DNA from: Bacteroidales bacterium
GTDB taxonomy: Bacteria > Bacteroidota > Bacteroidia > Bacteroidales > UBA932
NCBI GenBank assembly: GCA_015060445.1
Contig: SUYL01000015.1
Span: 32,053-96,052, forward strand
Direction: 5' to 3'
DNA length: 64,000 bases
Under the pieces are notes generated by a model, which was given only the letters and a program-made list of their open reading frames with translations, was not told the DNA's origin and made no database searches. The translations under genes were made by a program, and so were the position numbers. Shown here piece after piece: positions 30,899-48,740 of the stretch. Every line of letters begins with the position of its first letter. Positions within the stretch are counted from its first letter, which is position 1.

Positions 30899-30938
30899 TT
30901 TTACTTTTGATAAAATTACTCCCCCCAATAAATAACTA

Positions 30939-30961: not shown

Positions 30962-30994
30962 TCTCATTAAATTGAAAGCAATTCACAACCAACA

Positions 30995-33937
30995 TCAATA
31001 TATGATATCGAAGATCTGTTTCCATGTCATCGATGGTTTTCCCCAGCCGGATGCAAATATGCGTGAATATATCCAGTATAATCTGCCCGAGCTATCTGTC
31101 TTGGTTTTCTCTGATGTTTCTAGGTTAAAGTAATCAAGGTATGTCTGTGGGGCATTGTTCCCGTTGAAGGTGAATTGTGAGCCGTCAATGTACTGATATG
31201 TCTCTCCTTTGACGAATGTCCCATTCAGCTCTTCATAGAAACCGGTATGAGAAGTTTCATAGTCCTGGCCATTATAGGTGAAAGATACTTCCATCCCGGT
31301 CACTTCCCCTCCTTGCCATTTTTTACTGTCTGGATGGGATAGCAGTTTTGCAACCACCTCATTGACGTATTTGAAGTAGTACTCCCCTGTTCCATTATCA
31401 TAGCCTTGACTCTCTCTTGTCTCACTCTTGCTTACTCCTACCAGATATAGTGTCTCATAGAGGGTAATGGTACAGGTGGCAGTTGCCGTTTTGTCATTGT
31501 CTCCTGTTACGGTTGCGGTGAGTTTATATTCGCCGTTGTCGACTGCGCCCAAAGGAACTGTAAGGATACCGGTATTGGAGACAGTCATTTCTGTAGGGTT
31601 TTTGTCCCAACTCCATGATATCTGTGCCCGAGGGGATGTCTCCACCTTGAGGTCTACCACAGTTGCACTGCCTCCCATATTTGTGTGTACCTCTACACTC
31701 TCAAGCATGGTAAGCTGAGGCTTTACAGTGGCAGATATGGTGGCGGAGACGTCACTCCTGCCGGCTATGCTGATGGTAATGGTTCCTGAAGGAGGAAGGC
31801 TGCTCTCATCTTCTGTCTCGTAAATGACCCTGTTTGCTACCCCGTCATCGGTTGGTCCTACTCCAGGAATATTAGATGTCACTGTCACACCCAATGACGC
31901 TGCCCTTGCAGGGTATATGGTGTATCCGATGTCGTGGTAAAAGTTTTTGTATAGTGTGATGTTCGTTTCTGTAGGCACTATGCGCAGCTTCTCAACTGTG
32001 ACGCTGCATGTAGTGCTTACAGATCCGAGAGTGGCGGTGATGGTGGCACTTCCTGCTGTCAGTCCTTTTACTACGACTCCGGATGCATCATAACTCAATA
32101 TCTGTACAGTAGCACCATTGGATGATGTTACAGTATAATTGGCTCCTGCTGGGACCAGTTTGCTGAATTGTAGGTGTGCAGTTTCACCATCATAGAGTGT
32201 AATGGACTTTTGCATAAACTCGATTTGCCCGGCTACGACAGTCACTTCACAGAATAGATCCCAATGCCCGGATACCTTGATTCTTGTTTTCCCTGCTCCT
32301 ACTGCGGTCACTTTACCATTGGCATCCACAGTGGCCACGGCTGTATTCTCACTTGAGAATGTAGGCGTAAGTGGTGGTTTTATGGTGTAACTGATAGTAA
32401 AGCTCTCACCTGGATAGAGCGTCTTGGCAGTAGGGCTTATGCTGAATTCCTTGCTCAGTACTGTCACGCTACATGTCGCTTTCTTGCTGGTGTCATCTGT
32501 ACTTGTAGCTGTTATGGTACATGTTCCTGTTCCTTTGGCAGTAACTTTTCCATTGGCATCAACGGTAGCAACTGCATTGTTGCTGCTGCTCCAGTTGAGT
32601 GTCTTGACAGTAGCATTGGATGGTTGTACACTGGCTGACAACTGTGCAGTCTCATCTACATACATAGACAGGGTAGTGGGATTCATGGTCACTCCTGTAA
32701 CATATATCTTGCTGTCCACAGTTATGGCTACTGAAGCCGATATATTGGTGCCGTCTGTACTTATGGCAGTTATAGTACATGAGCCATCTCCTATGGCTTT
32801 TACTACACCGTTGGCATCAACGGTAGCAACTGCGTTATTGCTGCTACTCCAGTTGAGTGACTTGTTTGCAGCGGTCAGTGGCAACACAGTTGCGGTGATT
32901 TGTTTTGTAGCACCCAGTTCTGTGAACTTGTGGGATGTGGGGCTCAAGGATATTGAAGTCACAAGGTCAACTATCTCACTGTTGTCTACTCTCCATGTTG
33001 TCTCTGATACGGCACCATCTCCAGTGAAACTTACTGTGATGTTATGTTGTGTATTTCTCACCACATCGAAATTGGATGTCATGTCTTTACCCAGAAAAAA
33101 TCGGTATACTATATCACCTCTTTTCTTGGGTGATGAGTATGTGGCATTTATCTCAACATAACTGCAAGTAGATGCATATATGTTCCCTGCTTCAAATGTC
33201 TTTTCTGTTTGGATGAGGTTCCCTGGCAATAGTGTCCCTTGTTTGTTCTCATATTGGTATAGTACCACTCCTGATGTAAGTTGTCCTGCAGTAGGGTTGG
33301 TTACCTTTTCACCATCCATAGCTCCAGTTACGGATGTTATTTTGCTGTCTTTGAAAATGTTGATGTTTTTAGGAATATTTTTCAGCTGCACACTTTTTAC
33401 GTTGATTGTTACATCCGGGTTCAGCTGGTTGTAGTCTGCCCGGACTACTATTTTACTGATGCAGCGTGTCAGTGTTATTGGTAGTGACTGATTGTTGGTC
33501 AGTGTCTGCAGTCCGCTTTTGCCGCTCATCAGTACGGCTCCCGTTCCTGATGCCATCTGTGATACCGATGAGATGCTATATACAAGGTTATCCACCTCTT
33601 GAGCCGATTTTGCAGGCAGTGGCATGCCGGCATTGGCTATTGCATATACGGTATATTTCATGTTCTTGTATATGACTGCCTCTACCTGCCCGGATGAGGT
33701 ATAGTATCCGTGTGTTACAAGGTCTCCAAGTTCATTGAGAATGTACAGGTTCACGTTCTCCACCAGGGCCTCATTTACGGCTTTGGTAGACATGCCTTCA
33801 ATGGTGTAGCACATGGTGACAGCCACACTGTCCTGCTGGCCGTATGCCTTTACCATAGGATCCTGGTCGGTGTTTTCCTTGCTGCAGGAGAGCAGTAGAT
33901 ATGCCAGAATTGTTAATAGCAGAGTTAATTTACGCAT
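30995..33937 (-). CDS. Fimbrillin-family lipoprotein with tandem Ig-like (Big_2) domains, candidate fimbrial tip adhesin
   Basis: 980-aa exported lipoprotein (MRKLTLLLTILAYLLLSCSKE from ATG 33937). Residues about 30-320 resemble Mfa/Fim-type shaft folds (VYAIANAG, LTRCISKIVVRADY). They are followed by at least three Big_2 Ig-like repeats (SLSPTSHKFTELGATKQITATV..., VTMNPTTLSMYVDETAQLSASV...) and further beta domains. Two neighbouring Ig units share near-identical DNA 258 nt (86 codons) apart. As last gene of the fimbrial operon, a tip or adhesive role is likely. Target unknown. Confidence 0.75.
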   Translation of the reverse strand: MRKLTLLLTILAYLLLSCSKENTDQDPMVKAYGQQDSVAVTMCYTIEGMSTKAVNEALVENVNLYILNELGDLVTHGYYTSSGQVEAVIYKNMKYTVYAIANAGMPLPAKSAQEVDNLVYSISSVSQMASGTGAVLMSGKSGLQTLTNNQSLPITLTRCISKIVVRADYNQLNPDVTINVKSVQLKNIPKNINIFKDSKITSVTGAMDGEKVTNPTAGQLTSGVVLYQYENKQGTLLPGNLIQTEKTFEAGNIYASTCSYVEINATYSSPKKRGDIVYRFFLGKDMTSNFDVVRNTQHNITVSFTGDGAVSETTWRVDNSEIVDLVTSISLSPTSHKFTELGATKQITATVLPLTAANKSLNWSSSNNAVATVDANGVVKAIGDGSCTITAISTDGTNISASVAITVDSKIYVTGVTMNPTTLSMYVDETAQLSASVQPSNATVKTLNWSSSNNAVATVDANGKVTAKGTGTCTITATSTDDTSKKATCSVTVLSKEFSISPTAKTLYPGESFTISYTIKPPLTPTFSSENTAVATVDANGKVTAVGAGKTRIKVSGHWDLFCEVTVVAGQIEFMQKSITLYDGETAHLQFSKLVPAGANYTVTSSNGATVQILSYDASGVVVKGLTAGSATITATLGSVSTTCSVTVEKLRIVPTETNITLYKNFYHDIGYTIYPARAASLGVTVTSNIPGVGPTDDGVANRVIYETEDESSLPPSGTITISIAGRSDVSATISATVKPQLTMLESVEVHTNMGGSATVVDLKVETSPRAQISWSWDKNPTEMTVSNTGILTVPLGAVDNGEYKLTATVTGDNDKTATATCTITLYETLYLVGVSKSETRESQGYDNGTGEYYFKYVNEVVAKLLSHPDSKKWQGGEVTGMEVSFTYNGQDYETSHTGFYEELNGTFVKGETYQYIDGSQFTFNGNNAPQTYLDYFNLETSEKTKTDSSGRLYWIYSRIFASGWGKPSMTWKQIFDIIY
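32527..32900 (-). repeat. Duplicated Ig-domain coding segments, 258-nt period
   Basis: The block beginning TTGGCATCAACGGTAGCAAC occurs at 32553 and at 32811, with similar flanks, in frame. Confidence 0.8.
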
Positions 33938-34164
33938 ATATTTTTTCTTTAAGTTTGAATATCTTTTTATAGTCGTCATACAGCCCCAATTCTCTCAGTG
34001 CGTATATGGAAGTGTTATTGAGGGATTTTTCATGGACTATTAAAAATAGAGCCCGGTATTATGGAATGTTTTCCGGCGGCCCCATGGAAATTCAACCGCC
34101 CCGGACTCTGAATGGCAGGATTATTTACGCTCTCCATGCCTGTATTTTGTGGTTTAGGATTAGT
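33938..34164 (-). other. Gap inside the fimbrial operon
   Basis: 227 nt between the anchor and Ig-repeat genes, the only sizeable gap in the train. No -7 box seen. A 43-codon open stretch without start (reading ...YALRELGLYDDYKKIFKL...) ends just before the Ig gene and may be the relic of a lost small gene; this is weak. Confidence 0.35.
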
Positions 34165-34998
34165 TTATATTTCTATATCAACAGGGTATGTTGATGTCCA
34201 GTTTTCAATTTTTATACTGACGAAGTTGAAAGACATGTCCATTGTTATGGTTACATCCTTCAGGTCATCACTTTGCATGTTATAGTTGGCTTTCTTAAGG
34301 AACTCTCCCAATGGGAAGTCCTCTATCTTGACAGGGGTATTATCCACTGTCCCGGTTATCTTTATCAGGAGATCCTCAATATTCTCCTGTCTCATTATGC
34401 GGAAGCGGAACAGACTGTTCCCATCTGTTGTCTCCCTATCTTCCACGCTTATGCTCATATTGCCCGGTACATGACGTCTGTCAATGTATAAACCGGCAGT
34501 AGTTCCATATACATCTATATGTATGTCATCCCCTTTCTGAGGGGTGCTGTCCATGATGAAATCCATAGTGGCGAATTCCTTGTGGAGCTTTACGGTGTCA
34601 TATATGAATTCTCCGTGGGTACTGATTTTTTCGCTTGCCTGGTAGTATAGTGAATCAGATGATACTTTCCCTTTTTTTACGATGGATGAATTTAGAGTCA
34701 TATCATCTGTAACTGTCGAGGAGGACTTTATATTGCCGAATACATAGTATCTGAGTGCATCAATCCTTGGAAGCATTACTTCATGATGTGTGCGGTATTC
34801 TGATGAGTATATTGTATCTTTCAGCAGTACTTTTCCTGTGTTCTCATCAGTGAACCATATATGCAATTGTTCAATGTCTGTATTGACCGAAGAGCAATCC
34901 AGGGAAAACCAGCTCGGACAAGCCGAGCGGTCTTCGAAGATTCCTGGAGTACAGCTGCATAATATGGTTACAAGACACATTATAGCAAATCTGTTCAT
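34165..34998 (-). CDS. FimB/Mfa2-family fimbrial anchor lipoprotein
   Basis: 277-aa lipoprotein (MCLVTILCSCTPG) with the mature-end motif RSACPSWFSLDCSS, characteristic of Mfa2/FimB-like subunits that tether type V pili to the outer membrane and limit their length. The middle holds beta-strands such as YYVFGNIKSSS and TAGLYIDRRHVPGNMSISV. It lies 23 nt after the fimbrillin gene. Confidence 0.8.
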   Translation of the reverse strand: MNRFAIMCLVTILCSCTPGIFEDRSACPSWFSLDCSSVNTDIEQLHIWFTDENTGKVLLKDTIYSSEYRTHHEVMLPRIDALRYYVFGNIKSSSTVTDDMTLNSSIVKKGKVSSDSLYYQASEKISTHGEFIYDTVKLHKEFATMDFIMDSTPQKGDDIHIDVYGTTAGLYIDRRHVPGNMSISVEDRETTDGNSLFRFRIMRQENIEDLLIKITGTVDNTPVKIEDFPLGEFLKKANYNMQSDDLKDVTITMDMSFNFVSIKIENWTSTYPVDIEI

Positions 34999-35021
34999 GT
35001 TGCAAGATTTAGATTATCATA

Positions 35022-36095
35022 TTAGAAAATTACATTTACTGTAGGTACGGTAGCCCAATCGGCAACATTCATTGTCGCTTGCATTGTTGAATGTTCTACA
35101 GGTGTGTCAGGATCCAGTGAGCCTGGTCTTAGTATGGTAACATTGATGGTGTAAGTTGTATTACGTTTGATACCCATATGGCCTACTGATGAGTTATAGC
35201 CAAAACCCTCCCTGTTGATGCTGATAGGGTAATAGTATGTATGACCGTTAAGATCTGCCTGGATTACCAGTTTTGTGAACTTCTTGTCGGCAGATTCATT
35301 GGCCAAAAGGTTCTCATAGCAGTAGAAAGTATGTGTGGTGTTGTATCCTGAATCTGTAATGGCTGTTGCTGTCTCATCGTAGAGCATTCCTGCCATTGTA
35401 CAAGCATTGATGTCTGTAGCTACAACCTTTTTTGTATTCAGTATGGTAGGAGAGGGCTGGTCGCTGCCATCATGGTACAGTTTGTCACCTGCAGCGTTGA
35501 TCAGATACATCTTAACGTTGGTAAGGGATGAACCTGCCCATGGTGTTCCGGCAAATTGTGTCTTCACACTTGCCAGTTGAACCCTTGACACAAGTCGGCT
35601 GATGGAGAATGTAACTGATGTTGTAGTCTGAAGTACAGCTTCAAGGCTACCTGTCATTGTGAAGTCCTTGTTGTTTTCAGATTGCAATGATGCTATCTGC
35701 GCTTTGAAGTCTGCCAATGTCTTTACACCTGCCCAGTTGTCACTCTTGTGGGAATTGGCTACTGCATAGATGTGTTTTTTTCCTGTGGTTGTCTTAACCT
35801 CCAAGTTTGATAGGCTTGTCAGTTCAGCAGCAGTATACATTTTGTATGCATCCAGCATGCCGGCATCTGCGCCCTCTGCACGGAACACAAAGAATTCGAG
35901 CTTTTGAACAGTATTATCATCCGCTTGTACACCGTGTGCGCCTCCTGTCGCTTTTGATTGCACCTGGTCTTCAGGTATAATGTTTATTGAAAGAATGCTC
36001 TCCTGCATCTCGTTTGAATTGTTGGCCTTTTCGCAAGAGATAGTTGTCAAGCCCATAAGAAGGGCTGAAGCCAAAATAAAAAATGTTTTTTTCAT
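35022..36095 (-). CDS. Major fimbrillin (FimA/Mfa1-like type V pilin)
   Basis: 357-aa lipoprotein precursor (ALLMGLTTISCEKANN). After the lipobox comes the fimbrillin N-domain: ILSINIIPEDQVQSKATGG, LEFFVFRAEGADAG and KHIYAVANSHKSDNW, then a C-domain with TFSISRLVSRVQLASV and a final ATMNVADWATVPTVNVIF. Type V pilins are lipoproteins processed on the cell surface and polymerised by donor-strand exchange. It starts 10 nt after DUF3868 and is followed by the anchor gene. Confidence 0.85.
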   Translation of the reverse strand: MKKTFFILASALLMGLTTISCEKANNSNEMQESILSINIIPEDQVQSKATGGAHGVQADDNTVQKLEFFVFRAEGADAGMLDAYKMYTAAELTSLSNLEVKTTTGKKHIYAVANSHKSDNWAGVKTLADFKAQIASLQSENNKDFTMTGSLEAVLQTTTSVTFSISRLVSRVQLASVKTQFAGTPWAGSSLTNVKMYLINAAGDKLYHDGSDQPSPTILNTKKVVATDINACTMAGMLYDETATAITDSGYNTTHTFYCYENLLANESADKKFTKLVIQADLNGHTYYYPISINREGFGYNSSVGHMGIKRNTTYTINVTILRPGSLDPDTPVEHSTMQATMNVADWATVPTVNVIF

Positions 36096-36105
36096 GTTTT
36101 TTGTA

Positions 36106-38067
36106 TTAAATGGTGTCTAAATGTTTGTCAAGGGCATATTTCTTTATCAGTTGTGATACTTCAGGATCAAGGTTGCCTCGATGTCTCATAGAGTAGTCCT
36201 GCTCTACGCTTTGCAGGAAATGTTCTATAGCTTTTTGTTCTTTGCCTAACCGGGCATACACTACAGCAAGCATATAGTCTCTCTGAGCAGAACGGGGGAG
36301 GGTTGTCAGTACTGAGAGTGCGCTTTGATTATAGTCCATACATACGAAGGCTACGGCTGAGTTGTAGTCCATATAAGGTCTAAGAAGTTTTACGGCACTT
36401 TCATAATCCCTGTCTTCAAGGGCTTGTACACCTTGCATATATACCGAGTCAATCTCTGTGGTGTGGACTGTATCTTTGATCATGCCTTTCCTATGCAGGA
36501 AGAAGTCAAATTTTACGGTTCTCAGTTTTGCATATAACTCACTGCGTATATACTTGTAGTCTTTTGTCTGTTGAAGAGCTTTCTCCCTTTCATCAAGGTC
36601 CTCCACTTCCAGGCATTTGAGAATGCTTTCCCTGTCAATTAGTGATGTATCTTTATCAATCAGCTCCTTCAGTGTATCCCATTCTTCCGGGTGTGAATGT
36701 GTAAGTATGCCAATATCCTGGATCTCACTTTGTCTCATCTTCCCATCGCCCTCAGTGGTGAGGTCTATTACAAACATTGAATTCGCTACACTATCCCGGT
36801 AATCTTGTATGAATCGGTTGAAGTAATATTTGATGGACTGTGCTCTATTTTCAGCAAGTTTTGCGTTGGATGCAACTGTACCTTCAGGTGAGCAGCTTGC
36901 CGTAATGAGCAGTGAGTCCACTATGTAATCTTCTGCGGAGAGTACTGTGCGGATATTGTTTTTTATTCGGGCAATCTCTTTAGAGTTATTAGACAGAGTG
37001 TCATCTATATCATATCTGCCTACTTTGAATGCAATGTTTGCAGCTGTGTTGGCTTCAGCATTGCGATGAACCACTTTCTGAATATATCTTGGAGATTGGT
37101 CTGTGAATGCAGACATGGAACTGATATAGAATGTAAGAGGAGCTGTCTGAGGCATGGTATATATCCTGTCGTAACTGCCAGCTTCATATATTTCCCCTTT
37201 CAATACCATTTCTACTTTACGAAGGTTACGCCTTGTCTTGACAGGTTGCACGTAGTTGTACCGTATGGTGCCGTCAGCATTATTGATGACAGAATCCAAT
37301 CGGACGCCAACAAGTTTTATGGGATCTGTGACGTATCTGGCAAACATCTCATCCATCTTCTCCTTTTTCTTGTTGTTCTTCCTTACCAAGGAGTGCCTGG
37401 TGTAATAGTCCACAGCCTGTGCTTCAGTTACACCGAACGCAGTCCCGGTCTTCTGTCTGCTTCCTCTGAAAAATGACGACTTCTCCCTGTTTACATTCCT
37501 TTCCAGGAAAACTGTCAACAGGTGATCTTTTGTAAATGTCTTGTAGAAATCAGCGGTATCGGAGATGATTGTCTCAAGATACTTGTTATACTGAGCATAT
37601 CCTTTTTGCTGCCCCTCCCTGTATTTTGCGCCGGTGATCAGCAGTTCATCAAGGTTCAATGTGTCTTCGAGAATGCGGAACTGTGGCTGGAAACGTAGTT
37701 GCCAGTCTTCATCCTGCATTTCTTTAGGTACGATAATGTCAAATGAGATATCAACATATCCGTTCCTCTCGGCCAGATGTCTGAACTTAGCTTCTACCAC
37801 TATGGCATTGAGCTGCTCAACTGCAACCATCTCACCACTCTCTTCATCCTTGACAGCATTCATTATTATGCTTTCTCCTTTTATGTTCTGTATCTCCACC
37901 TTCGTTGTGGTATCTGCCATATATAGTTGCTGCATCTGTTGGCTGTCCTCACTCATGGCCACTGATGCCTGTAGATGCTCCTTTTTGATTTTTTTTATTT
38001 TCTGCTGTGTCGAGCAACCCATCATGATGACTGACAACAGTAGAATTGTATATGTAATTTTTCTCAT
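36106..38067 (-). CDS. DUF3868-type, OmpA-like fimbrial operon lipoprotein
   Basis: 653-aa lipoprotein (ILLLSVIMMGCSTQ). An N-terminal beta-rich DUF3868-like part (about residues 60-320) precedes an OmpA-like stretch (VDSLLITASCSPEGTVASNAKLAENRAQSIKYYFNRF, about 385-425) and a TPR-like C-terminus (LAVVYARLGKEQKAIEHFLQSVEQ). DUF3868 genes accompany DUF3575 and FimA-type genes in Bacteroides fimbrial loci. A cell-envelope assembly role is inferred. Confidence 0.75.
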   Translation of the reverse strand: MRKITYTILLLSVIMMGCSTQQKIKKIKKEHLQASVAMSEDSQQMQQLYMADTTTKVEIQNIKGESIIMNAVKDEESGEMVAVEQLNAIVVEAKFRHLAERNGYVDISFDIIVPKEMQDEDWQLRFQPQFRILEDTLNLDELLITGAKYREGQQKGYAQYNKYLETIISDTADFYKTFTKDHLLTVFLERNVNREKSSFFRGSRQKTGTAFGVTEAQAVDYYTRHSLVRKNNKKKEKMDEMFARYVTDPIKLVGVRLDSVINNADGTIRYNYVQPVKTRRNLRKVEMVLKGEIYEAGSYDRIYTMPQTAPLTFYISSMSAFTDQSPRYIQKVVHRNAEANTAANIAFKVGRYDIDDTLSNNSKEIARIKNNIRTVLSAEDYIVDSLLITASCSPEGTVASNAKLAENRAQSIKYYFNRFIQDYRDSVANSMFVIDLTTEGDGKMRQSEIQDIGILTHSHPEEWDTLKELIDKDTSLIDRESILKCLEVEDLDEREKALQQTKDYKYIRSELYAKLRTVKFDFFLHRKGMIKDTVHTTEIDSVYMQGVQALEDRDYESAVKLLRPYMDYNSAVAFVCMDYNQSALSVLTTLPRSAQRDYMLAVVYARLGKEQKAIEHFLQSVEQDYSMRHRGNLDPEVSQLIKKYALDKHLDTI

Positions 38068-38090
38068 TTCTTATTAAATCAAGTGTTTTT

Positions 38091-38930
38091 TCAGGCTGTT
38101 TTGATTGACTTGTATATGTCATACAGGAATATTCTGTCTTCTTCTTTTGTTGTGTTTACGATTACCTCGAGTAGTTTGTCAGCATCTATCTTCGGAGTGA
38201 TGGATTCTGTCAGTACTTTTGTCGGGTTCTGATGTCCTGCAAAGGCACTTATAAATAGGGAAGCCTTTTTTGTGGGCTGTCTTATGCTGCTGAACAGCTT
38301 CATCACTCCATCAATGGAGAAGTATCTTTTAGGTGTGGCATTATCTGATGCTGTACTGTCTGAGAACCAGTATATATATCGTTTGAAGTGAGGCTCGCTC
38401 AGTTTTTTCCTCAGATGGCTTCCCCAGACCTCGCATGCTTTCATGATGTCCTTCACCTTGTAATATATATTGCCATTGTAATGTACTGTCATCACAGGAT
38501 GTCCGCCTATGCTTATCAGTTCCGGTGTATGATGCCCGGGCATTATGTTGCGCCCGGCAATATATCGTTGTGATTTGAAAGTGTTGTTCTCAACCTTCCC
38601 CATCAGCAGCAGCTCCTTGATGCGGTCATTGCACCAGATGTAGAAAGATGGAGATAACCATTGAGCAAATAATAATGCCAGATCTTCATTTAAAAAAGTT
38701 CCTTGTATTCTATTGCCACCTTGAATAATTTTAATTAACCCCGTTCGGGGAATTCCCCGAACGGCAGATAATGAGGTAATTAGCTCTTCGGTTTGTTGTA
38801 GGCGTAGCCAATCACTTGGTTGTTTTCCAAATGGCTTTGCCATCTGTGTAGCGTTTATCATTGTGGTTTCACCCACTTGAAATGATATGGAATTGTCGTT
38901 GTAGTTAAATATTTTCAGATTCTTTCCCAT
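38091..38930 (-). CDS. KilA-N domain protein inserted in the fimbrial operon
   Basis: 279-aa protein. The KilA-N domain spans about residues 10-115: GETTMINATQMAKPFGKQPSDWLRL, GIPRTGLIKIIQGGNRIQGTFLNEDLALLFAQWLSPSF. A second region, about 140-225, is unassigned. KilA-N proteins are DNA-binding factors of phages and mobile elements. It lies 3 nt after DUF3575 and 23 nt before DUF3868, splitting genes that usually neighbour each other. A perfect 24-bp palindrome lies within its own coding sequence, a plausible self-binding site. Confidence 0.85.
   Translation of the reverse strand: MGKNLKIFNYNDNSISFQVGETTMINATQMAKPFGKQPSDWLRLQQTEELITSLSAVRGIPRTGLIKIIQGGNRIQGTFLNEDLALLFAQWLSPSFYIWCNDRIKELLLMGKVENNTFKSQRYIAGRNIMPGHHTPELISIGGHPVMTVHYNGNIYYKVKDIMKACEVWGSHLRKKLSEPHFKRYIYWFSDSTASDNATPKRYFSIDGVMKLFSSIRQPTKKASLFISAFAGHQNPTKVLTESITPKIDADKLLEVIVNTTKEEDRIFLYDIYKSIKTA
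38741..38764. repeat. Perfect 24-bp palindrome in the KilA-N gene
   Basis: CCGTTCGGGGAA followed directly by its exact reverse complement TTCCCCGAACGG. It is GC-rich within an AT-rich neighbourhood and translates as part of the KilA-N domain. Confidence 0.9.
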
Positions 38931-38933
38931 AAC

Positions 38934-39497
38934 CTAGAATAAGTATGATAGTTTTACAAGCAGTTCATTTGGGCCTACATATATCTGTTTTTGTCTGCCT
39001 TCTTCTACTCGTCCACATTTGGGACATGAGTAGGTTATATATCTGTTTGGGCCAACCATAAGTCCAAATCCGAAATCCATATTCAGGTGCTTGTTCAATA
39101 GCCAGGAATATCCTGCTCCAAGAGAGAACCCATATACCTTCCCCTCCCATGTCTTGGTCTTGATTATACCTCCCGTGTTATATTTGGTGAATTGGGCACT
39201 GGCTGATGCCCACCAACCAGTATATACATGCCATGGGTAATATCGTGTACCTGCGGCAAATGTCAACTGTCTGTTTTGCATATGCTTCTCATTCGGCTGA
39301 TTATTTCTGAAGGTCCATGGATTGTATTTGCCTTGTATATACACAGTCCAGTTTTTTGCAACGGCATATGATATGTCCATGTTAGCAGTTAAGAAATTAG
39401 CGTAAGACAGCAGATTGGTGCCTACTGCTACCTTTTGGGCATGGCCTTGATAGGCTATGGCCATTAGTGCCAAGAAAAGAAAAAATAGTTTTTTCAT
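38934..39497 (-). CDS. DUF3575-family outer-membrane protein
   Basis: 187-aa barrel-like protein with signal peptide (MKKLFFLFLALMAIAYQGHAQ) and family-typical blocks VGTNLLSYANFLTANMDISYAVAKNWTVYIQGKYNPW, YPWHVYTGWW and ITYSCPKCGRVEEG. DUF3575 genes are usual first genes of Bacteroides type V fimbrial operons. Its start is 2 nt after the stop of the TraQ-like gene, the junction that joins the conjugation and fimbrial blocks. Confidence 0.85.
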   Translation of the reverse strand: MKKLFFLFLALMAIAYQGHAQKVAVGTNLLSYANFLTANMDISYAVAKNWTVYIQGKYNPWTFRNNQPNEKHMQNRQLTFAAGTRYYPWHVYTGWWASASAQFTKYNTGGIIKTKTWEGKVYGFSLGAGYSWLLNKHLNMDFGFGLMVGPNRYITYSCPKCGRVEEGRQKQIYVGPNELLVKLSYLF

Positions 39498-39499
39498 AA

Positions 39500-40518: not shown

Positions 40519-41306
40519 TGTATTGTGTATTTTTTTGCGTTTGCAATGTCTTTGCTGTCTATTTTCAAGGAGACATTTCTATAACCATCTGTCTCATATA
40601 TGTTGACCTGTAGCTGCTTACCCTCTGATATTGTTAGCTTTTCGAACGCATAAGTGGCTGTTGTACGGTTGCCTGGAGCCACACTGAGATGACCATAACG
40701 CTCGTCTGGAACTAGGACGATGTCTTGTGCTGTACTCCTGCTTTGAGTAATGTCTGCCATTACGAATGTCACATCACAACTGTAACTTATGGAAGACTTG
40801 TTTTTGATGCCTACGGTTATATATACCTTGTTGTGGCAGGTGTATATATTGTCAATATTGAATTCAATTCTAAGTGTCTTGTCATAAATATGGTTCAATG
40901 ATGCTTTAGAACCGTTTATGGCAACTATGACAGAATTTCCTCCTGAAGGTATAGTGGCGTCTGAGGATGTAACATCATGCTTTTGACCCTCTTTTTGGCG
41001 TATTATGTATTTTTTAAGGTGAGGAGTATATCTGACTATGTATGTGGTCAGATTTTCATCCTTGGTCATGACTGTAAGAGTCGTTTCCCCTTGGAAGGGA
41101 GCTGATGCCTTGATGCGTAATAGGGAAGGTACGCTGGGTGCGGCGGCTGCAACTATAGCATTGCTACCCAGGTCGCAATATATTATGTCGGATGCACACT
41201 GCAGATGGAGGGTAGTAGTTTCGTTGACGTAAAGAGTATCCTGTCCCATTGAACTGGTGTAGGACAGTAATGTCATGACTGTTGCGATTGTCAAATTCCT
41301 GATCAT
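40515..41306 (-). CDS. traN: Conjugative transposon protein TraN (DUF4138, VirB9-like)
   Basis: 263-aa periplasmic/outer-membrane component with signal peptide (MTLLSYTSSMGQDTLYVNETTTLHL). The N-terminal strand-rich part with TTLHLQCASDIIYCDLGSNAIVAA and the C-terminal DERYGHLSVAPGNRTTATYAFEKLTI match the DUF4138 layout. Expected to form the outer core with TraM. Confidence 0.78.
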   Translation of the reverse strand: MIRNLTIATVMTLLSYTSSMGQDTLYVNETTTLHLQCASDIIYCDLGSNAIVAAAAPSVPSLLRIKASAPFQGETTLTVMTKDENLTTYIVRYTPHLKKYIIRQKEGQKHDVTSSDATIPSGGNSVIVAINGSKASLNHIYDKTLRIEFNIDNIYTCHNKVYITVGIKNKSSISYSCDVTFVMADITQSRSTAQDIVLVPDERYGHLSVAPGNRTTATYAFEKLTISEGKQLQVNIYETDGYRNVSLKIDSKDIANAKKYTIQ

Positions 41307-42364
41307 TGTAAGTATATCTGGTAATCTTTTGGTAGGGTTATCACTTGTTGCTTTTCTTTGGCTGCTCGGTTGCCCATACGGCTAGTTGAACGAATTATCG
41401 TACCTGCCGTTCTGTTGGCCATACTGGCCAGCTGGCCTACCATATTGGTTGCTGCTGAAACAGCTTCATCTGTTATCTGTTCCGATGTTTCATCTACTGT
41501 ATATGCCAGTCCTTTGTATCCATCAGTGTCATATGCGGCCCAGTTGACAGGCAGGACTTTCCCATTATAGTTGATACTGGATATATACAGTTGCAACCTG
41601 TTGTCATCAATCTTTGCTATTGCATATACATACGTGTTCTTAGGCAGTATCATATTGCCTGTTCCTGTTGGGGTTTCCTGGAGTAACCGCAACTGCACCT
41701 TGTCTCCTGCACATATTTTTGTCTCGGTTGTGGTTGCTGCTTTTATTGGATTGTGTGTTGTTATACCACCTCCGACAACTGTAATGAAGCCTCCGGTTGA
41801 AGTGCCTGTTTCAGGGGCCTGTGATTGTATAGTTTCCGGCTTCTGCTCTGATTGTTGCTTGTCTGTAGACTCTTCTTTGCCGTAGAGTTTCTCAAGCAGA
41901 TAGTCATATCTCTCCTGCCATTCTTCCTTGCCGGATGTGTCAGAAATGCCTTTGCTTGTAGATGAAGGAACAGGCTTTGCTGTAACCTTTTTCTTTTTCT
42001 CATTTCTTGTACCATCAGATACCTTCTCTTGCAGCTTTGTGGTAATTCTTTCCACAGCCTGTTGTTGCTGTCGCATTGTTTCTTGGGCATTGATGACAGA
42101 TTCATCTGCAGCAGTTGTATCTGTAGCTCCAGATGATAAGTCTGCCAGATAAGCATCATAGCTTTTTACAGTGCGTCCGGATTCATATGCCTTTATTTTG
42201 GCACGTGGTATATCATTTGTGGCGGCATCGGGCAATTCTACTTTTACCGGTGTGTCTGATTCCTTGCCAGAAATTCCTGTTATAATGTGGATGAGCATTG
42301 CTGCAATGGCTATTGTAATGATGCCGAATAATGTCAGCAGTAGCATTTTCTTTTTCTTCTCCAT
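41303..42364 (-). CDS. traM: Conjugative transposon protein TraM (VirB10-like)
   Basis: 353-aa bitopic protein: cytoplasmic lysines, one N-terminal transmembrane helix (LLLTLFGIITIAIAAMLIHIITGI), a long charged/Gln-rich linker, then the conserved C-terminal domain (TTTETKICAGDKVQLRLLQETPTGTGNMILPKNTYVYAIAKI). The family bridges the inner-membrane complex to the outer core. A 4-nt overlap joins it to TraN. Confidence 0.82.
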   Translation of the reverse strand: MEKKKKMLLLTLFGIITIAIAAMLIHIITGISGKESDTPVKVELPDAATNDIPRAKIKAYESGRTVKSYDAYLADLSSGATDTTAADESVINAQETMRQQQQAVERITTKLQEKVSDGTRNEKKKKVTAKPVPSSTSKGISDTSGKEEWQERYDYLLEKLYGKEESTDKQQSEQKPETIQSQAPETGTSTGGFITVVGGGITTHNPIKAATTTETKICAGDKVQLRLLQETPTGTGNMILPKNTYVYAIAKIDDNRLQLYISSINYNGKVLPVNWAAYDTDGYKGLAYTVDETSEQITDEAVSAATNMVGQLASMANRTAGTIIRSTSRMGNRAAKEKQQVITLPKDYQIYLQ

Positions 42365-42366
42365 TA

Positions 42367-42996
42367 TTACCTTATTTTTTCTTTTCTTGTGTCATTATTT
42401 ATTATCTCAAGCTTTTCCAGTAATAAACCATGGGGATTAGCATCACTGCGAGCTATCTCACGCACAGTACATGTGGTGATCAGGTCTTTTACAACTAATG
42501 AGTTGCTTCTGACGATATACATAGTAGCATATGTACGTGCATTGTATGGGTAAATGCTGAAATCAATTTTGATGCTGTCAACAGTCAGGGACTGGCTTAT
42601 TGAGGCATTGATTAGCCTTGAGTAGTAACCTTGCTCCTGTAGGTCATTATAATGTTCATATGCCCTCCTGTCTGCAAGATTAAGGGCTGCATTGATATTA
42701 TGTTCTATACTTTCCACATTTGGGGCAAGGGTAAAGAAGAGTTCATGGAATCGTGTAATATGGTCCTTAACTTCGATTGGTTTATTGGCCACCTTATCGC
42801 TTTGTAGAGCCAGCAGAAGACTCTTGCCCTGGTCTAGAACGTATATTTTTTCACGCTGTTTCTCCGCATATTGCAGGGCTGACACAATGGATGTTATTGC
42901 TATAATGCCACTTGACACCATAGCAGTCAGGGCTATTATTTTTATGCCCTTGAATGAATTTTCTATTCTGCTGAAAGCCTTTATTGTCTTTTCCAT
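42367..42996 (-). CDS. traK: Conjugative transposon protein TraK (VirB8-like)
   Basis: 209-aa inner-membrane protein with the typical N-terminus (FSRIENSFKGIKIIALTAMVSSGIIAITSIVSAL) carrying one membrane helix, and a periplasmic alpha/beta domain. Lies 2 nt before TraM. VirB8-like scaffold of the channel. Confidence 0.82.
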   Translation of the reverse strand: MEKTIKAFSRIENSFKGIKIIALTAMVSSGIIAITSIVSALQYAEKQREKIYVLDQGKSLLLALQSDKVANKPIEVKDHITRFHELFFTLAPNVESIEHNINAALNLADRRAYEHYNDLQEQGYYSRLINASISQSLTVDSIKIDFSIYPYNARTYATMYIVRSNSLVVKDLITTCTVREIARSDANPHGLLLEKLEIINNDTRKEKIR

Positions 42997-42998
42997 AT

Positions 42999-43928
42999 TT
43001 ATCCTAAGAATCTTTTGAAGAATGCAGTTGCTGCAATTGCCCCTCTTTTTGCTCCTGCGGCACTATTTACACCGGCTTTGTTAACTGCTGCGTTGAACCC
43101 TGTACCACCGGTGCTTTCTACTACCCACTCCGCTATGGTTGGTATCTTGAACAGACCGATGACTGATACGATGCTCACGCATAGAAGGGTGAGCTGGGGA
43201 GACGTAATCGTTCTTTCTTCTTTCAATGCTGTCTCAAGTATGATATTACCGATACTTCCAGTAAGGAATATGAATATCTGTGCAAGAGGCTGCCACAACA
43301 TAATCTGGATGTATCTGGCAAACCAGCTGGTAATACCGCTGCGGAACGATGGTATGATTGCCAGGGCAAAGGTGATCGGCCCGGTAAGAGATAACAGCAT
43401 CATGTATATTATTGACAGGAAAGAAACAAACACTTGAGCCACATGTGTAAGAAGATTTACAAGCCAAATCATGATGTTCATACAGGATCTTTCTATCCAT
43501 CCGGGCATCTCGGCTCTGGATACATTACTGGCCTGGTATTTGGCATCCATATCAGCGATATCTGTATTGTCAACATCAGTTGCTTCTTCTTCATACTCAA
43601 TGGCTGCTTTTATCCTTTTGTTGAGCAATTCCCTTTCCGATTTCATGTCATCACATATGTTGCTCATCCATTTCGTTGTGGCCTGTGATATACCATCAAG
43701 CGGTGCTATTACCAGTTGTGGAAAGACACTGAGCACAAATGCTATACAGAATGGCCTTAAGGCCAGACCTAAATCAAAACCTCCTTTGATATAACTCTCA
43801 TAACACACAGTGACAATAAGGATAGTTGCTGCTATGCCGCCTATCCCGGATGCAACATACTGGAATTGTGGAAATACATCATCCAGTAGTAGTGATTTGA
43901 GGTTATATAGTTCTTGTAGAAAATCCAT
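42999..43928 (-). CDS. traJ: Conjugative transposon protein TraJ (VirB6-like)
   Basis: 309-aa polytopic inner-membrane protein with six or more hydrophobic segments (e.g. IGGIAATILIVTVCYESYIKGG; FVSFLSIIYMMLLSLTGPITFALAIIPSFRSGITSWFARYIQIMLWQPLAQIFIF). The ITSWFARYIQ..LWQPLA block is typical of TraJ. Lies 2 nt upstream of TraK. Confidence 0.85.
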   Translation of the reverse strand: MDFLQELYNLKSLLLDDVFPQFQYVASGIGGIAATILIVTVCYESYIKGGFDLGLALRPFCIAFVLSVFPQLVIAPLDGISQATTKWMSNICDDMKSERELLNKRIKAAIEYEEEATDVDNTDIADMDAKYQASNVSRAEMPGWIERSCMNIMIWLVNLLTHVAQVFVSFLSIIYMMLLSLTGPITFALAIIPSFRSGITSWFARYIQIMLWQPLAQIFIFLTGSIGNIILETALKEERTITSPQLTLLCVSIVSVIGLFKIPTIAEWVVESTGGTGFNAAVNKAGVNSAAGAKRGAIAATAFFKRFLG

Positions 43929-43934
43929 TATAAA

Positions 43935-44534
43935 TTATAATACGCTGTTTAATAGTCTGAGGTCGTTGTCAAGCTGGTTCTGATAGTATAGGTCATCCAT
44001 GAGACGGCGGCCATAATATCGGATATTGTTATAGTTGCGGCAGGCCTTGTTGTGGAGTTCGTTGACAAACTTCAACCGCTCGGCATCATTCATCTCATAT
44101 ACATTGTCAGTAATCAGATCCTCCAGCTCAATCACATACTTGGTGCTTGCGCAGAACAGTGAGTAAAGATTGGCTATATGTCTTGTCTTTTTCAAGTTGG
44201 AGAACTTGCTTTCCATGAGAACTTTGGCCAATTTGGTGTATTCATTGCCTGTCATAACAGAGTAGGATAGTATTTCCAATACCTTAGTTCCGTTGCTTAT
44301 CTTTTTCTTCACCTGTTGCATGCGGTTAACATTCTCAATGGCAATATCCAGCATGTGGCTTGTTTTCTCAACGCTCTCCAGTGCTGCAGCAAGGTTCTCT
44401 GATGAGACTCCCACTTCCTCAAGGCTGTTGGCAATGGCTGTAATCTCTCCCATTACATCATGCACTATCCACTGAGCCTTTGCATTTGTGCCAATAAAAA
44501 TATTGAGGCATATAATGATAAATACTCGTTTCAT
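43935..44534 (-). CDS. Conjugal transfer protein TraI-like (DUF4141)
   Basis: 199-aa exported coiled-coil protein. ATG 44534 gives a signal peptide (VFIIICLNIFIGTNAKAQ), discarding 29 track residues that overlap TraG. The mature part WIVHDVMGEITAIANSLEEV...VEKTSHMLDIAIENVNRM is VirB5/TraI-like helical, followed by DUF4141-type ICASTKYV-region helices. Position between TraG and TraJ supports the assignment. Confidence 0.72.
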   Translation of the reverse strand: MKRVFIIICLNIFIGTNAKAQWIVHDVMGEITAIANSLEEVGVSSENLAAALESVEKTSHMLDIAIENVNRMQQVKKKISNGTKVLEILSYSVMTGNEYTKLAKVLMESKFSNLKKTRHIANLYSLFCASTKYVIELEDLITDNVYEMNDAERLKFVNELHNKACRNYNNIRYYGRRLMDDLYYQNQLDNDLRLLNSVL

Positions 44535-44535
44535 A

Positions 44536-46941
44536 TCAATGGTCTTGTGTAAGGTTATCAATTGCGTGTATATAACTTCCCCCACATTTTTCCACCTCAT
44601 TTTTGAGGAGGACTTGTTCACTGCGTGTAGTGGTATAAGCCCAATATGCCTGTGGGGATGTTTCTATTGCATAGACATATTTGTGTGAACCGATGCATAT
44701 GTATGCTTCTCTGTATTTATATCGGCGGTCAAGATCTTTGTTGATTGAAAAGATCAGGTTCTTGTCTTGATTATTGAGTGCCAGGATGGCTGCAATGTCA
44801 TCATATTTGTCTTTAAGAGATTTCTGGTCTAACAGAATTCGGATGGCAGAGTTGTTTATTATAGCCTGTTTTACTACAGGTGAGGATATGATGTCTTCCA
44901 CTTCTTGAGTGACAACCATGGCCTGAGCATTATGCTTTCTTGCGGTTTTCCATAGCCATTGTATCCATCCCTCCATTTCTGGTGAGGAGATTGCTTTCCA
45001 AGCCTCTTCAATAAGCATTATTTTCCGTTCCTTGACAGCCTTCATCTTGTCGGCAAATAGTTTTGTAATCAGCAATGTAATAATGGGGAACAGGACCTCA
45101 TTATTGGAGATGCTGTCGATTTCAAACAATACGAATCTTTTCGTGCTAAGGTTGATGTTTTGCTTATTGTTAAGCAATGTGCTATACTTACCTCCAAGGC
45201 AAAAAGGTTTAAGAGCTATCAGAAGATCCTTAATGGCAAAGCCACATGAGGCGATATCATCAGCTTTGGCAATTGACCATGTATCATTCAGCCAATTGCG
45301 GAAGTTATCCATGGTGCGGTCGCACCAGGTACCTTCGGACAGGTACAACTCTATAGCCTCATATAACAGTGCATCCTCTGCGGCTGAGGGAGACTTTTTC
45401 TTCCAGATACAGTATATCAGTGACAGAAGAAATGTCTTGTCTTCTTCACTAGTGACGTTCAGGAATGGGTTGAATGAAAATGGATAGTCATCAGCATTAT
45501 AGTATATGCCGTCATTACCATTTGTTTGTTCACGTATAATCTGGCACAAGGAAAAATACGAGTTGCCCTGATCAATGAGCACACAATGTGCCTGGTCCCT
45601 ATAATAGGACTGGGTAATGTACTCGTTTGTTAAAAATGATTTGCCGGATCCTGACGGCCCCAGCGTGAAAATATTATAGTTTGTAATCAGTCCTCTTTCC
45701 TGTGCGACAGTGGATAGGTCAATGGCTACTGGCACATGGGTTGTCCTGTCGGTAACATAGAATGAACCGTTTTTTATGCCTGTGGATGCTGTTTCCAAGG
45801 ATGCTAATGAGGTTGCAACCTGTAATGACTGTGTCATATATTCTTCATCTGGAAGATCTGCGCTGTTCCCTGGTATACTTGCCCAGTAGGGAACAGGGCA
45901 GTTATAGCCATTTTTACGAAGATGTATTCCATGTCTGAGGAGTGACGTGACCAAATTATTGATATCCGTACTTCCTTCCACCAATATTTGTACTGAAAAT
46001 CTTACTGTCTGCAGATTGTTTTCTGCAACCTCTTCCATATATTCGCTTATGTGTTCGTAGTGTGTCGCATTGTCTGCAGAGATACCGCTCATGGACCGCA
46101 GGAAACGGGATTTGCTTTCCAATCGTGACATGGCTTTGTTGCTGTCCACTATTTTGATATACTGGTTGACGATGTGGTTCGAGGCTATGTTATAGCCAAT
46201 TTGCGCTAGGATGCTGGAGTACATTTTGGTTGTATCAGTTGAGAGTATCCTGTCAATGACATTTTCCTCAAAACTGTTGGGCATGTCTTTCAGGGATGTG
46301 ACGGACAGGTTATATATTTCTCTGTCGGAAATTTTAACCTTGTCAGGCTGCAGCTGGATATCCTCCAGTATGTATTGCTCATTATTGCAGAAATTTATGA
46401 TTTTCCCTGATATGTCATTTATCTCATTAGGAGTAAGCTTGCGTAACTGCATTAGCCTCTTGTCAGATGTTAACATATTGACAGCCTGCTCCACGCTGTC
46501 CACAAATGTATATATGTCTGCCTGTACCTTCTGTGTAAAGATATTGCCTCTTGTTAGGATACTGCCCAATGAGGAGATATCCTGCCTGTTGCGGTGTGGC
46601 ATGGTGAACTGCAATAGTGATGTATGTTGCAGATATTGACGATGGTTGAAATGGCTGTTATAGCATTGAATCAGATATCCATCATCCTTATTGCCCATCT
46701 CGTTATGGGTAGAGAAATATATGTCCTGCTTGAGTATTATTGTCCCGACAGGCAATGTGCCAAATGCACGTATCAGCAGCTGGCGCATCTCACTATATTC
46801 ATCAGCTGAAAGGCTGTTCTTGGCTGGCAATGACATCAGATAGCATATGCATATGTCTCCGCTTTTGCCTATTATGCATTCTTCATTTACTTCCAGCACT
46901 GGGTACAGATCCTGGTATTCAACTTTCCTTATCGTCTGCAT
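44536..46941 (-). CDS. traG: Conjugative transposon ATPase TraG (VirB4-like)
   Basis: 801-aa ATPase that powers assembly of the type IV secretion system. Walker A is GPSGSGKSF near residue 433. Walker B/RepA-like motif IMLIEEAWKAISSPEM lies near 645, followed by TARKHNAQAMVVTQEVEDI. The N-terminal third is the VirB4/CagE domain (IGKSGDICICYLMSLPAKNS). Overlaps TraF by 13 nt. Confidence 0.93.
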   Translation of the reverse strand: MQTIRKVEYQDLYPVLEVNEECIIGKSGDICICYLMSLPAKNSLSADEYSEMRQLLIRAFGTLPVGTIILKQDIYFSTHNEMGNKDDGYLIQCYNSHFNHRQYLQHTSLLQFTMPHRNRQDISSLGSILTRGNIFTQKVQADIYTFVDSVEQAVNMLTSDKRLMQLRKLTPNEINDISGKIINFCNNEQYILEDIQLQPDKVKISDREIYNLSVTSLKDMPNSFEENVIDRILSTDTTKMYSSILAQIGYNIASNHIVNQYIKIVDSNKAMSRLESKSRFLRSMSGISADNATHYEHISEYMEEVAENNLQTVRFSVQILVEGSTDINNLVTSLLRHGIHLRKNGYNCPVPYWASIPGNSADLPDEEYMTQSLQVATSLASLETASTGIKNGSFYVTDRTTHVPVAIDLSTVAQERGLITNYNIFTLGPSGSGKSFLTNEYITQSYYRDQAHCVLIDQGNSYFSLCQIIREQTNGNDGIYYNADDYPFSFNPFLNVTSEEDKTFLLSLIYCIWKKKSPSAAEDALLYEAIELYLSEGTWCDRTMDNFRNWLNDTWSIAKADDIASCGFAIKDLLIALKPFCLGGKYSTLLNNKQNINLSTKRFVLFEIDSISNNEVLFPIITLLITKLFADKMKAVKERKIMLIEEAWKAISSPEMEGWIQWLWKTARKHNAQAMVVTQEVEDIISSPVVKQAIINNSAIRILLDQKSLKDKYDDIAAILALNNQDKNLIFSINKDLDRRYKYREAYICIGSHKYVYAIETSPQAYWAYTTTRSEQVLLKNEVEKCGGSYIHAIDNLTQDH

Positions 46942-47198
46942 ATGTAGTAGTTCATTTTTCTTTTTGAGGCAATCTTTGTGGCAGCCTTACCTTTGGCGGA
47001 AGCAGACATTAAATACAGTACAACAGCCGTAGTGCTGCTGCATAGTATGGCAAGCATCAGAATAGCAGGTATATTTGCTGATAGGCAGATGAAAGTGATG
47101 ATAAGTGCAATCACTATCCATAATGCCAGGAAAAGAAGATATGTCCCTTCTATTCTCATCCAGCTTACTTTGGAGTCAAGGCTTTTGTTTACTTCCAT
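46929..47198 (-). CDS. traF: Conjugative transposon protein TraF (DUF4133, VirB3-like)
   Basis: 89-aa protein with two adjacent transmembrane helices (YLLFLALWIVIALIITFICL and AILMLAILCSSTTAVVLYLM) and a basic tail, as expected for DUF4133/VirB3-like subunits. Its end overlaps the TraG start. Confidence 0.8.
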   Translation of the reverse strand: MEVNKSLDSKVSWMRIEGTYLLFLALWIVIALIITFICLSANIPAILMLAILCSSTTAVVLYLMSASAKGKAATKIASKRKMNYYICRR

Positions 47199-47210
47199 AA
47201 TTGTCTTTCA

Positions 47211-47531
47211 TCAGATGTTGAACATCTGTTTTATAGCATATAGAGCAATGCAGATGAAAGCCAGAATTCCGAACCATGAAAGGGATTTTTTCCACCCCTG
47301 CCCGTGCTCATCTGTGTACAATTGATAAGCTGTTATTATTAGGCCTATCAATGCCCCAAGCCCGAATAGCGTCATGGCTATGTTCAATGCGCTGCTGTAT
47401 ATGCTGGCTAATTGTGATTCTACTTCTGTCAATCCTGATGAGATGTCGATTGTTTGTGCAGATACTGCATGTGGTGCCAGTAAAAGTATTGCGCTAATAC
47501 TGACCGCTAAGTGTCTTGAAGTTCTTTTCAT
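47211..47531 (-). CDS. traE: Conjugative transposon protein TraE (DUF4134)
   Basis: 106-aa exported protein: signal peptide ending AVSAQ, then two hydrophobic helices separated by the loop YTDEHGQGWKKSLSWFG, the DUF4134 pattern reminiscent of VirB2-type pilins. Twelve nt before TraF. Confidence 0.82.
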   Translation of the reverse strand: MKRTSRHLAVSISAILLLAPHAVSAQTIDISSGLTEVESQLASIYSSALNIAMTLFGLGALIGLIITAYQLYTDEHGQGWKKSLSWFGILAFICIALYAIKQMFNI

Positions 47532-47751
47532 AATCTTCTATTTCTTTTTCTGTTATTGCAAAATCCAGCGTTGACAGTTCAAGGGCTTGTGACTGTTCTT
47601 CTCCCAGTTCTTTTAGAGAATAATCTGGTTTAAGATCAGTAAAGCCATCTGTTATTTTATAGGTCACTCTTTTGATTATTGGACTGTCTGATGTTATTTT
47701 TGGAGGAGATATTCTTTGCTTCTTCCTCCAGAATCCTAAGATTTTCATCAT
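47494..47751 (-). CDS. Small tra-region protein (TraD position), heavily overlapping neighbours
   Basis: 85-aa charged protein (MMKILGFWRKKQRISPPKITSD...) with no recognised domain. It overlaps the upstream gene by 95 nt and TraE by 38 nt in different frames; no later ATG exists, so either the overlap is real or a non-ATG start is used. Position resembles TraD in CTnDOT-type clusters. Confidence 0.45.
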   Translation of the reverse strand: MMKILGFWRKKQRISPPKITSDSPIIKRVTYKITDGFTDLKPDYSLKELGEEQSQALELSTLDFAITEKEIEDYEKNFKTLSGQY

Positions 47752-47965
47752 AGTATGTTTTGTACCGTAATTTCAACTCAGGATCATACTCTGTGCATTT
47801 TTCAAGCAGGTATATCACGAAGGCATTCCTTGATTTGCCTAACGCTGCAGCAAGATTCTTTATTGTCAGTTCCCTGGCACGGCTTGATATCTTGTAGAAT
47901 GATCTGTTTGTTTTGAAACTGTTTTTTGATATGTCTGATTTGAAATTATATTCGCGTCTACTCAT
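47657..47965 (-). CDS. Small basic tra-region protein, unknown function
   Basis: 102-aa protein rich in Lys/Arg/Ser with a helical centre (ARELTIKNLAAALGKSRNAFVIYLLEKC) that could be a ribbon-helix-helix or helix-turn-helix. It follows the ParA-like gene by 7 nt. Similar small proteins occupy TraB/TraC positions in Bacteroides systems; I cannot assign a family. Confidence 0.55.
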   Translation of the reverse strand: MSRREYNFKSDISKNSFKTNRSFYKISSRARELTIKNLAAALGKSRNAFVIYLLEKCTEYDPELKLRYKTYYDENLRILEEEAKNISSKNNIRQSNNQKSDL

Positions 47966-47972
47966 ATTGGTA

Positions 47973-48683
47973 TTATTCTGAGATTATTTCTTTAAAGATT
48001 GTATCGTAGTTAAGTTTCTTGTCCAGGATGGTTTTCTCCGGATAGCATAGTGTCGATTTTATGAATATCGTGTCACTGCCGTACTCCCTTCTCATGTATG
48101 AGGTGCTTTTAACCTTATTTTTGCATACTTGTAGGCCATATTTCTGTTCTATGGTTTGGGTATGCTCTTTATATATTTCTTCTTTTTCATGGAAGAGGAC
48201 ATTGTTCCATAAGAGTCTTACACTTGGTATGTAATGCATCAGCTGGGTAGCTGCTTTTATATTGCTAACAATTACTGATGTATCCATAATTGTTGGCAGG
48301 ATGGCAAGGTCTATGAATTTAGCCTTGATAAGAGATATTGCATTGCTATCAGTTAAAGAACCAGGATAGTCAATGACAATAAAGTCAAAGATGTCTTCTT
48401 TTTTCAGCCGTATAAGGTTTTGTTTTTCTTCCTCTGTGCCTAGTTTGATTATAGGATAAATAGAGTTGTTGCCAGAAGGAAGATGGCGGTCAATCATTTC
48501 CGGTGACTTTTCGTATTCGCTGATCTCCCTTTGACGTAGGTTGAATAGGTTATAGGCAGGGGCATCGGCATCAACGCAGAGTACTTTTTTCTTCTCTTTA
48601 TTGAGCCATGATGAGAACAGTACGGCAATGGATGTTTTTCCTGTCCCCCCCTTAACGGTGAAAAATGCAATTGTTTTTGCCAT
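47973..48683 (-). CDS. ParA/MinD-family ATPase (TraA position)
   Basis: 236-aa P-loop ATPase with the deviant Walker A KGGTGKTS (residues about 11-18), VDADAP and FIVIDYPGSL (Walker B-like). It is the first gene of the minus-strand tra train, as TraA in CTnDOT-type elements, and may act in partitioning or in positioning the transfer machinery. No ParB partner is adjacent. Confidence 0.85.
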   Translation of the reverse strand: MAKTIAFFTVKGGTGKTSIAVLFSSWLNKEKKKVLCVDADAPAYNLFNLRQREISEYEKSPEMIDRHLPSGNNSIYPIIKLGTEEEKQNLIRLKKEDIFDFIVIDYPGSLTDSNAISLIKAKFIDLAILPTIMDTSVIVSNIKAATQLMHYIPSVRLLWNNVLFHEKEEIYKEHTQTIEQKYGLQVCKNKVKSTSYMRREYGSDTIFIKSTLCYPEKTILDKKLNYDTIFKEIISE

Positions 48684-48707: not shown

Positions 48708-48740
48708 TAATAACAATGCGATAAAAAACAAAAAAATTAA

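Follow-up and report, generated by a model that had tools for sequence, protein, structure and literature searches.

A type V pilus cassette at the end of the transfer operon of a Bacteroidales integrative conjugative element

A transfer operon that ends in type V pilus genes

We analyzed a 64,000-nucleotide stretch of DNA (hereafter the window; G000:C1:32053-96052) from a draft genome of a gut Bacteroidales bacterium (2.18 Mb, 67 contigs, 87% complete), in which the tra genes of a conjugative element are followed on the same strand by genes for a type V fimbria, or pilus. The carrier of this run is an integrative conjugative element (ICE) inserted in the 3' end of a tRNA-Met gene. Its left attachment site, attL, is the 48-bp 3' part of tRNA-Met (25173..25220, plus strand), and attR, a repeat of the last 48 bp of the gene, lies on another contig of the genome (C55:1046-1093; 97.9% identity over 48 bp). 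The match between the window and the chromosomes of two relatives with an empty site (G262 and G203) ends at 25,220, the 3' end of tRNA-Met, and after attR contig C55 continues with the sequence found next to tRNA-Met in genomes whose site is empty; the right end of the ICE thus lies off the window's contig. An integrase, att repeats at a tRNA gene, a relaxase and a coupling protein are all present, as in an ICE.

From 48,683 down to 30,995, all genes lie on the minus strand, forming a 17.7-kb run bounded by plus-strand genes on both sides (one encoding 530 amino acids and ending at 30,898, the other encoding ArdC and starting at 48,779). As the original prediction had stated, most gaps are small: 14 of the 16 intergenic junctions are at most 23 nt or overlapping. 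The two wider ones precede TraE (125 nt) and the last gene (185 nt); a small open reading frame (ORF; 47,494–47,751) that overlaps TraE spans the former. The run begins with a ParA-like ATPase (47973..48683), followed by two small ORFs with no assigned function (47494..47965), both kept in a diverged relative of the element, L009. Pfam and NCBIfam recognize TraG, F, J, K, M, N and O, with TraG, J, K, M, N and O in CTnDOT-type order, and match TraE and TraI only below their curated cut-offs. In order, these genes are TraE-like (47211..47531; DUF4134), TraF (46929..47198; DUF4133), the TraG ATPase (44536..46941; Pfam P-loop_TraG, 2.9e-114), TraI-like (43935..44621; named from a weak DUF4141 match and its position, with a true start probably downstream of 44,621), the VirB6-like TraJ (42999..43928), TraK (42367..42996; TIGR03781, 6.6e-71, above cut-off), TraM (41303..42364; Pfam, 2e-28), TraN (40515..41306; DUF4138, 5.6e-38; TIGR03780, 2.8e-41, below its cut-off) and TraO (39961..40518; Pfam, 9.4e-21).

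Next comes a lipoprotein gene in the TraQ position (39500..39964), and the first gene of the pilus cassette starts 2 nt later. This gap had been predicted, together with a TraQ-like identity for the lipoprotein; the gap stands, and the homology is at most putative, as the lipoprotein had no Pfam match and profile comparison with TraQ/DUF3872 was not significant.

The cassette opens with DUF3575 (38934..39497; Pfam, 8e-39) and a KilA-N domain protein (38091..38930; Pfam, 2.7e-22). The third gene (36106..38067) had been called DUF3868. It had no Pfam DUF3868 match at E 0.01 and encodes instead an OmpA-like/TPR lipoprotein of 653 amino acids (OmpA-like fold, Foldseek E ~2e-4; C-terminal TPRs), a counterpart of DUF3868 by position. 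A FimA/Mfa1-type stalk pilin follows (35022..36095; Pfam P_gingi_FimA, 7.3e-13, above cut-off; NCBIfam Mfa1 family, below cut-off), and then an Mfa2/FimB-type anchor lipoprotein (34165..34998) with an invariant lipobox-like cysteine at position 16. The anchor had no Pfam match; its AlphaFold model (predicted local distance difference test score, 86) matched in Foldseek a Bacteroides thetaiotaomicron DUF1812 protein (3gf8, E 6.8e-13) and Mfa2 of Porphyromonas gingivalis (5nfi, E 2.1e-12). Pfam and the anchor fold thus bear out the DUF3575, KilA-N, fimbrillin and anchor genes in the order first proposed.

The run ends, as had been noticed, with an immunoglobulin (Ig)-repeat protein of 980 amino acids (30995..33937), which consists of a FimA-related N-terminal part, DUF4906 and Big_2 Ig-like repeats. 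Its likely start is 33,937, and the first in-frame ATG is at 33,979. Because an iterated profile search relates its N-terminus to FimA, we take this protein to be the tip pilin. Type V pili are built from three structural classes of pilin, namely stalk, anchor and tip (PMC12632263; PMC5789003), and by Pfam and predicted fold the set encoded here is well supported as complete. The fimbrial genes are intact in the window and in L009, with ratios of nonsynonymous to synonymous substitution of 0.03–0.15 where synonymous sites are unsaturated; by this measure they have been held under purifying selection.

A single recognizable promoter precedes the run

Bacteroidales promoters follow the consensus TTTG-N18-22-TAnnTTTG. 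The only minus-strand match to it over the whole operon lies upstream of ParA (TTTG-N21-TATCTTTG, 48700..48732) and is kept in L009 at 2507-2539. Scored over ten informative bases, this site reaches 10/10, the best site upstream of any other gene 8/10, and the best within 200 nt upstream of DUF3575 6/10. A hairpin scan found no minus-strand terminator-like site at the junction between the lipoprotein in the TraQ position and DUF3575, and found a terminator-like hairpin just past the tip gene (30938..30962, minus strand; 11 bp, 7 G-C, weak T-tail). Neither a strong promoter nor a terminator, which the original prediction had named as evidence against a fusion, was therefore recognized at this junction.

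With a single promoter ahead of ParA, cells making the transfer genes would also make the type V fiber. A link between pilus and tra expression is predicted, with good support from the anatomy of the operon. The earlier wording, that the pilus is locked to conjugation, is too strong; what the anatomy leads one to expect is expression that follows the tra operon.

The linkage is kept in relatives and recurs in other elements

Two other genomes carry the same junction. L008 is the same element (mostly 99% identical), and L009 is strongly diverged (tra genes 63–89% identical); both keep the order TraO, TraQ-like, DUF3575, KilA-N, OmpA/TPR, FimA, Mfa2 and tip. Lack of conserved linkage had been named in advance as a reason to drop the proposal, and linkage is present in the diverged L009 and, in similar form, in other elements described below. 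Taken with the complete pilin set, the single strand and the conserved promoter, it makes the fusion of a type V fimbrial operon to the tra operon well supported.

Within this comparison, TraM, TraN, TraO and the TraQ-like gene (39503-42364) are 63–68% identical to L009, and the flanking tra and fimbrial genes are 72–89% identical; TraK belongs with the better-conserved flank, unlike TraM, TraN, TraO and the TraQ-like gene. The stretch from TraM to the TraQ-like gene may have been exchanged, or may be evolving faster.

The KilA-N gene belongs to the ICE version of the cassette only and is absent from chromosomal cassettes. It is a mosaic: the copies in the window (38091-38930), L008 (7804-8706) and L009 (12350-13192 and 17316-17714) are nearly identical over ~105 nt at the 5' end and throughout the part after TGGTGCAATGACCGCATC, with cores that differ from copy to copy, and the truncated second copy of L009 bears the window's core. 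It looks as if cores have been exchanged by recombination between copies. L008 and L009 also have ORF6N genes between anchor and tip (12762-14361 and 17742-19742, respectively); in the window this region (33938-34164) carries a deletion, and the C-terminal ~30 codons of the ORF6N gene stay as a remnant in the 185-nt gap before the tip gene (33938..34035, minus strand).

We found five arrangements that couple a cassette to tra genes (A–E), of which A is the window's ICE group and the others place the cassette at four different positions. B comprises the g11 ICEs L021, L022 and L025, whose tra proteins are 23–47% identical to those of the window and whose run reads TraN, lipoprotein, three Mfa_like_1 fimbrillins, an anchor-like gene, DUF3575, OmpA/TPR and an Ig tip. 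In C, the plasmid pBUN1 (NZ_AP019725) and the pMMCAT-type plasmid pBFO17_1 (NZ_CP036540) carry a cassette that precedes TraG and shares the tra strand. D is a B. ovatus plasmid with the cassette after the coupling protein. In E (G317 and G596) the cassette is again on the tra strand and precedes TraI/TraJ; in G317 it sits between TraG and TraJ. Two further candidates were not counted as couplings: G510 (L094, L096) has FimA-like genes after TraO and lacks DUF3575 and OmpA/TPR in the stretch, and in G654 tra genes and cassette are 28 kb apart. A search of PLSDB with TraN returned distant plasmids only (<30% identity among the matches listed), and the 7-kb junction had no nucleotide match there. 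Among viral contigs there were one weak fimbrial relative and two weak KilA-N relatives. In the B. ovatus plasmid L054 a Bro-N gene (7079-7822) directly follows TraG, another phage-type DNA-binding gene within a tra operon.

Chromosomal cassettes of the same class are widespread. Of 39 genomes from the window's genus, 37 encode a relative of the OmpA/TPR protein, and the 18 loci inspected combine DUF3575 with OmpA/TPR and, in almost every case, also include FimA and Mfa2. These loci resemble the window's cassette in their order (DUF3575, OmpA/TPR, FimA, Mfa2, tip) and differ from it in having no adjoining tra genes, no KilA-N gene and an OmpA/TPR protein at most 53% identical. The window's own genome has such a chromosomal cassette, a separate copy 48% identical to that of the ICE. 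Likewise, the complete g11 genome G011 carries a B-type cassette with the same gene order and no tra genes beside it.

On a tree of the OmpA/TPR protein, well supported branches call for three or more shifts between chromosomal and element-borne locations. Type A clusters with copies from chromosomes of the window's genus (96/94), and type B clusters with G011 (99/100); a common origin of C, D and E is possible. A single lineage for all element-borne cassettes is thus rejected. We then asked how often cassettes lie beside tra genes in an order-wide, evenly drawn sample of 393 genomes, which contained 16 places with an OmpA/TPR protein. Four of these (G000, G031, G596 and G317) are within 12 kb of TraN on the same strand, where 0.085 would be expected from tra coverage (P ~1e-6, or 6e-5 when both E types are treated as a single case; the P values treat places as independent though the genomes are related, and the four include the window itself). 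In a fifth place (G510) the gene comes after a coupling protein, and a sixth, in G654, is 28 kb from TraN. Because the linkage is kept in a diverged relative and is enriched beside tra genes across the order, it appears to exceed chance.

A candidate pilus for mating-cell contact

Bacteroidales exchange DNA heavily in the gut, and to our knowledge little is understood about how mating cells in this order make and keep contact. On balance, and with modest confidence, we favor the view that an ICE transfer operon took up a type V pilus that is co-expressed with it and whose fiber most likely joins mating cells or makes cells aggregate. A cassette of DUF3575, OmpA/TPR, stalk, anchor and tip would have been acquired as the last genes of the operon; the ParA promoter would read through the genes of the mating apparatus into the pilus genes; and cells switching on transfer would also display an adhesive fiber with an Ig-repeat tip, which may hold donor and recipient together, or aggregate cells, during transfer. 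Co-transcription, assembly at the surface, the tip's binding target and a benefit to transfer are what we infer from gene content and order. Mating-pair stabilization, the function first suggested, is plausible, and we offer it as a hypothesis because the pMMCAT papers report fimbriae as cargo and adhesion of the carrier.

Several observations weigh against this view. The open-access literature on pMMCAT ties the fimbriae to adhesion and biofilm rather than to transfer efficiency (PMC8102008, PMC12056005). A consensus scan would miss promoters of other classes as well as phase-variable ones, and what marks the site ahead of ParA as a promoter is its sequence rather than a mapped start site. 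Furthermore, of the 86 tra-bearing stretches sampled, 70 contain no gene of the cassette, so the pilus would be an accessory to conjugation rather than a requirement for it in Bacteroidales.

A broader proposition is that Bacteroidales conjugative elements have repeatedly, on three or more occasions, captured type V pili from host chromosomes and brought them under tra control to serve as dedicated mating pili that keep mating cells joined in the gut. We advance it tentatively, as an idea that at present has less than an even chance of being right. If true, it would give type V pili a new role and define a new class of accessory conjugation pilus.

The most serious alternative, which we nevertheless consider rather unlikely, is that the cassette is fitness cargo: a pilus for adhesion and biofilm that came under the tra promoter through the place where it inserted, is co-expressed with transfer genes whose function does not depend on it, and is selected through host colonization. 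Conjugative plasmids commonly carry adhesins, pMMCAT fimbriae have been reported as cargo on a plasmid that also bears a polysaccharide locus (PMC8102008), and adhesion is stronger in a P. vulgatus with pMMCAT than in a close relative that lacks it (PMC12056005; for adhesins, PMC7690428). The near-universal chromosomal relatives in the genus, with no nearby tra genes at the loci inspected, also count in favor of this reading. However, cassettes lie inside or directly beside tra operons, on the tra strand and at different positions, more often than chance insertion into a cargo region would explain.

It is improbable that the fimbrial genes are transcribed separately, from their own phase-variable promoter or one of another sigma class, with the short gap incidental. 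Phase variation can occur in the chromosomal type V fimbriae of Bacteroides (PMC12632263), and consensus scans miss other promoter classes; against this stand the 2-nt gap, the poor 6/10 score upstream of DUF3575, the lack of inverted repeats of 40 nt or more within the element and the junction order kept in L009. A chimeric assembly joining a chromosomal fimbrial locus to the ICE, conceivable for a draft genome in 67 contigs, can be set aside, as two other genomes show the same junction and whole order, complete plasmids show related couplings, and the genome's own chromosomal cassette is a distinct copy.

The element both resembles and departs from known systems. The pMMCAT-type megaplasmids and pBUN1 are likewise conjugative, with a DUF3575-OmpA/TPR-anchor-fimbrillin cassette on the tra strand adjoining TraG. 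They differ in being plasmids with the cassette upstream of TraG, whereas the window holds an ICE with the cassette after TraO; their OmpA/TPR proteins are 31–33% identical to the window's, and pMMCAT also has polysaccharide genes. CTnDOT-type operons share the Tra families and their order, and most sampled tra loci lack pilus genes in the stretch. The P. gingivalis mfa1 and fimA loci have in common with the window the Mfa2 anchor fold, judged from a predicted model, and have no adjoining tra genes. The thin pilus of IncI1/R64, an accessory mating pilus, is a second pilus from a conjugative element, thought to aid cell contact; it is type IV, whereas the pilus here is predicted to be type V. 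The type 3 fimbriae of the IncX1 plasmid pOLA52 also reside on a conjugative plasmid and raise biofilm formation, but belong to a different fimbria class, and fusion to a tra operon is not stated for them (PMC7690428).

The fimbriae of pMMCAT and the better adhesion of its carrier strain are thus already known. In the open-access literature we found no description of fimbriae inside a Bacteroidales tra operon or of their repeated capture. A type V pilus under a transfer promoter would be a concrete candidate for mating-cell contact in gut Bacteroidales, and since similar couplings recur in unrelated elements, the idea could be put to the test in pMMCAT-type plasmids, which are tractable. The coupling may also help to explain the wide spread of pMMCAT, whose fiber, reported to promote adhesion, may belong to the transfer program rather than to separate cargo.

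Other genes of the element

The remaining genes that define the ICE lie on the plus strand. A tyrosine integrase (25699..27030; Pfam Phage_integrase plus a SAM-like domain) follows attL, and two ORF6N genes near it (27294-27746 and 28739-29290) have repeats in common (76–84%). Divergent from the tra operon is the gene for an ArdC-like antirestriction protein (48779..49792), with a Rep3 replication initiator (50014..51141), MobC (52993..53388), a MobA/VirD2-like relaxase (53369..54496) and the type IV coupling protein (54493..56373) further along. Three iteron-like 43-nt repeats spaced 53–54 nt apart (51149-51298) adjoin the Rep3 gene, which suggests a plasmid-like replication stage of the ICE. 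Finally, an exact 90-nt direct repeat (60817-60906 and 62950-63039) lies on both sides of a HipB/HipA-like pair.

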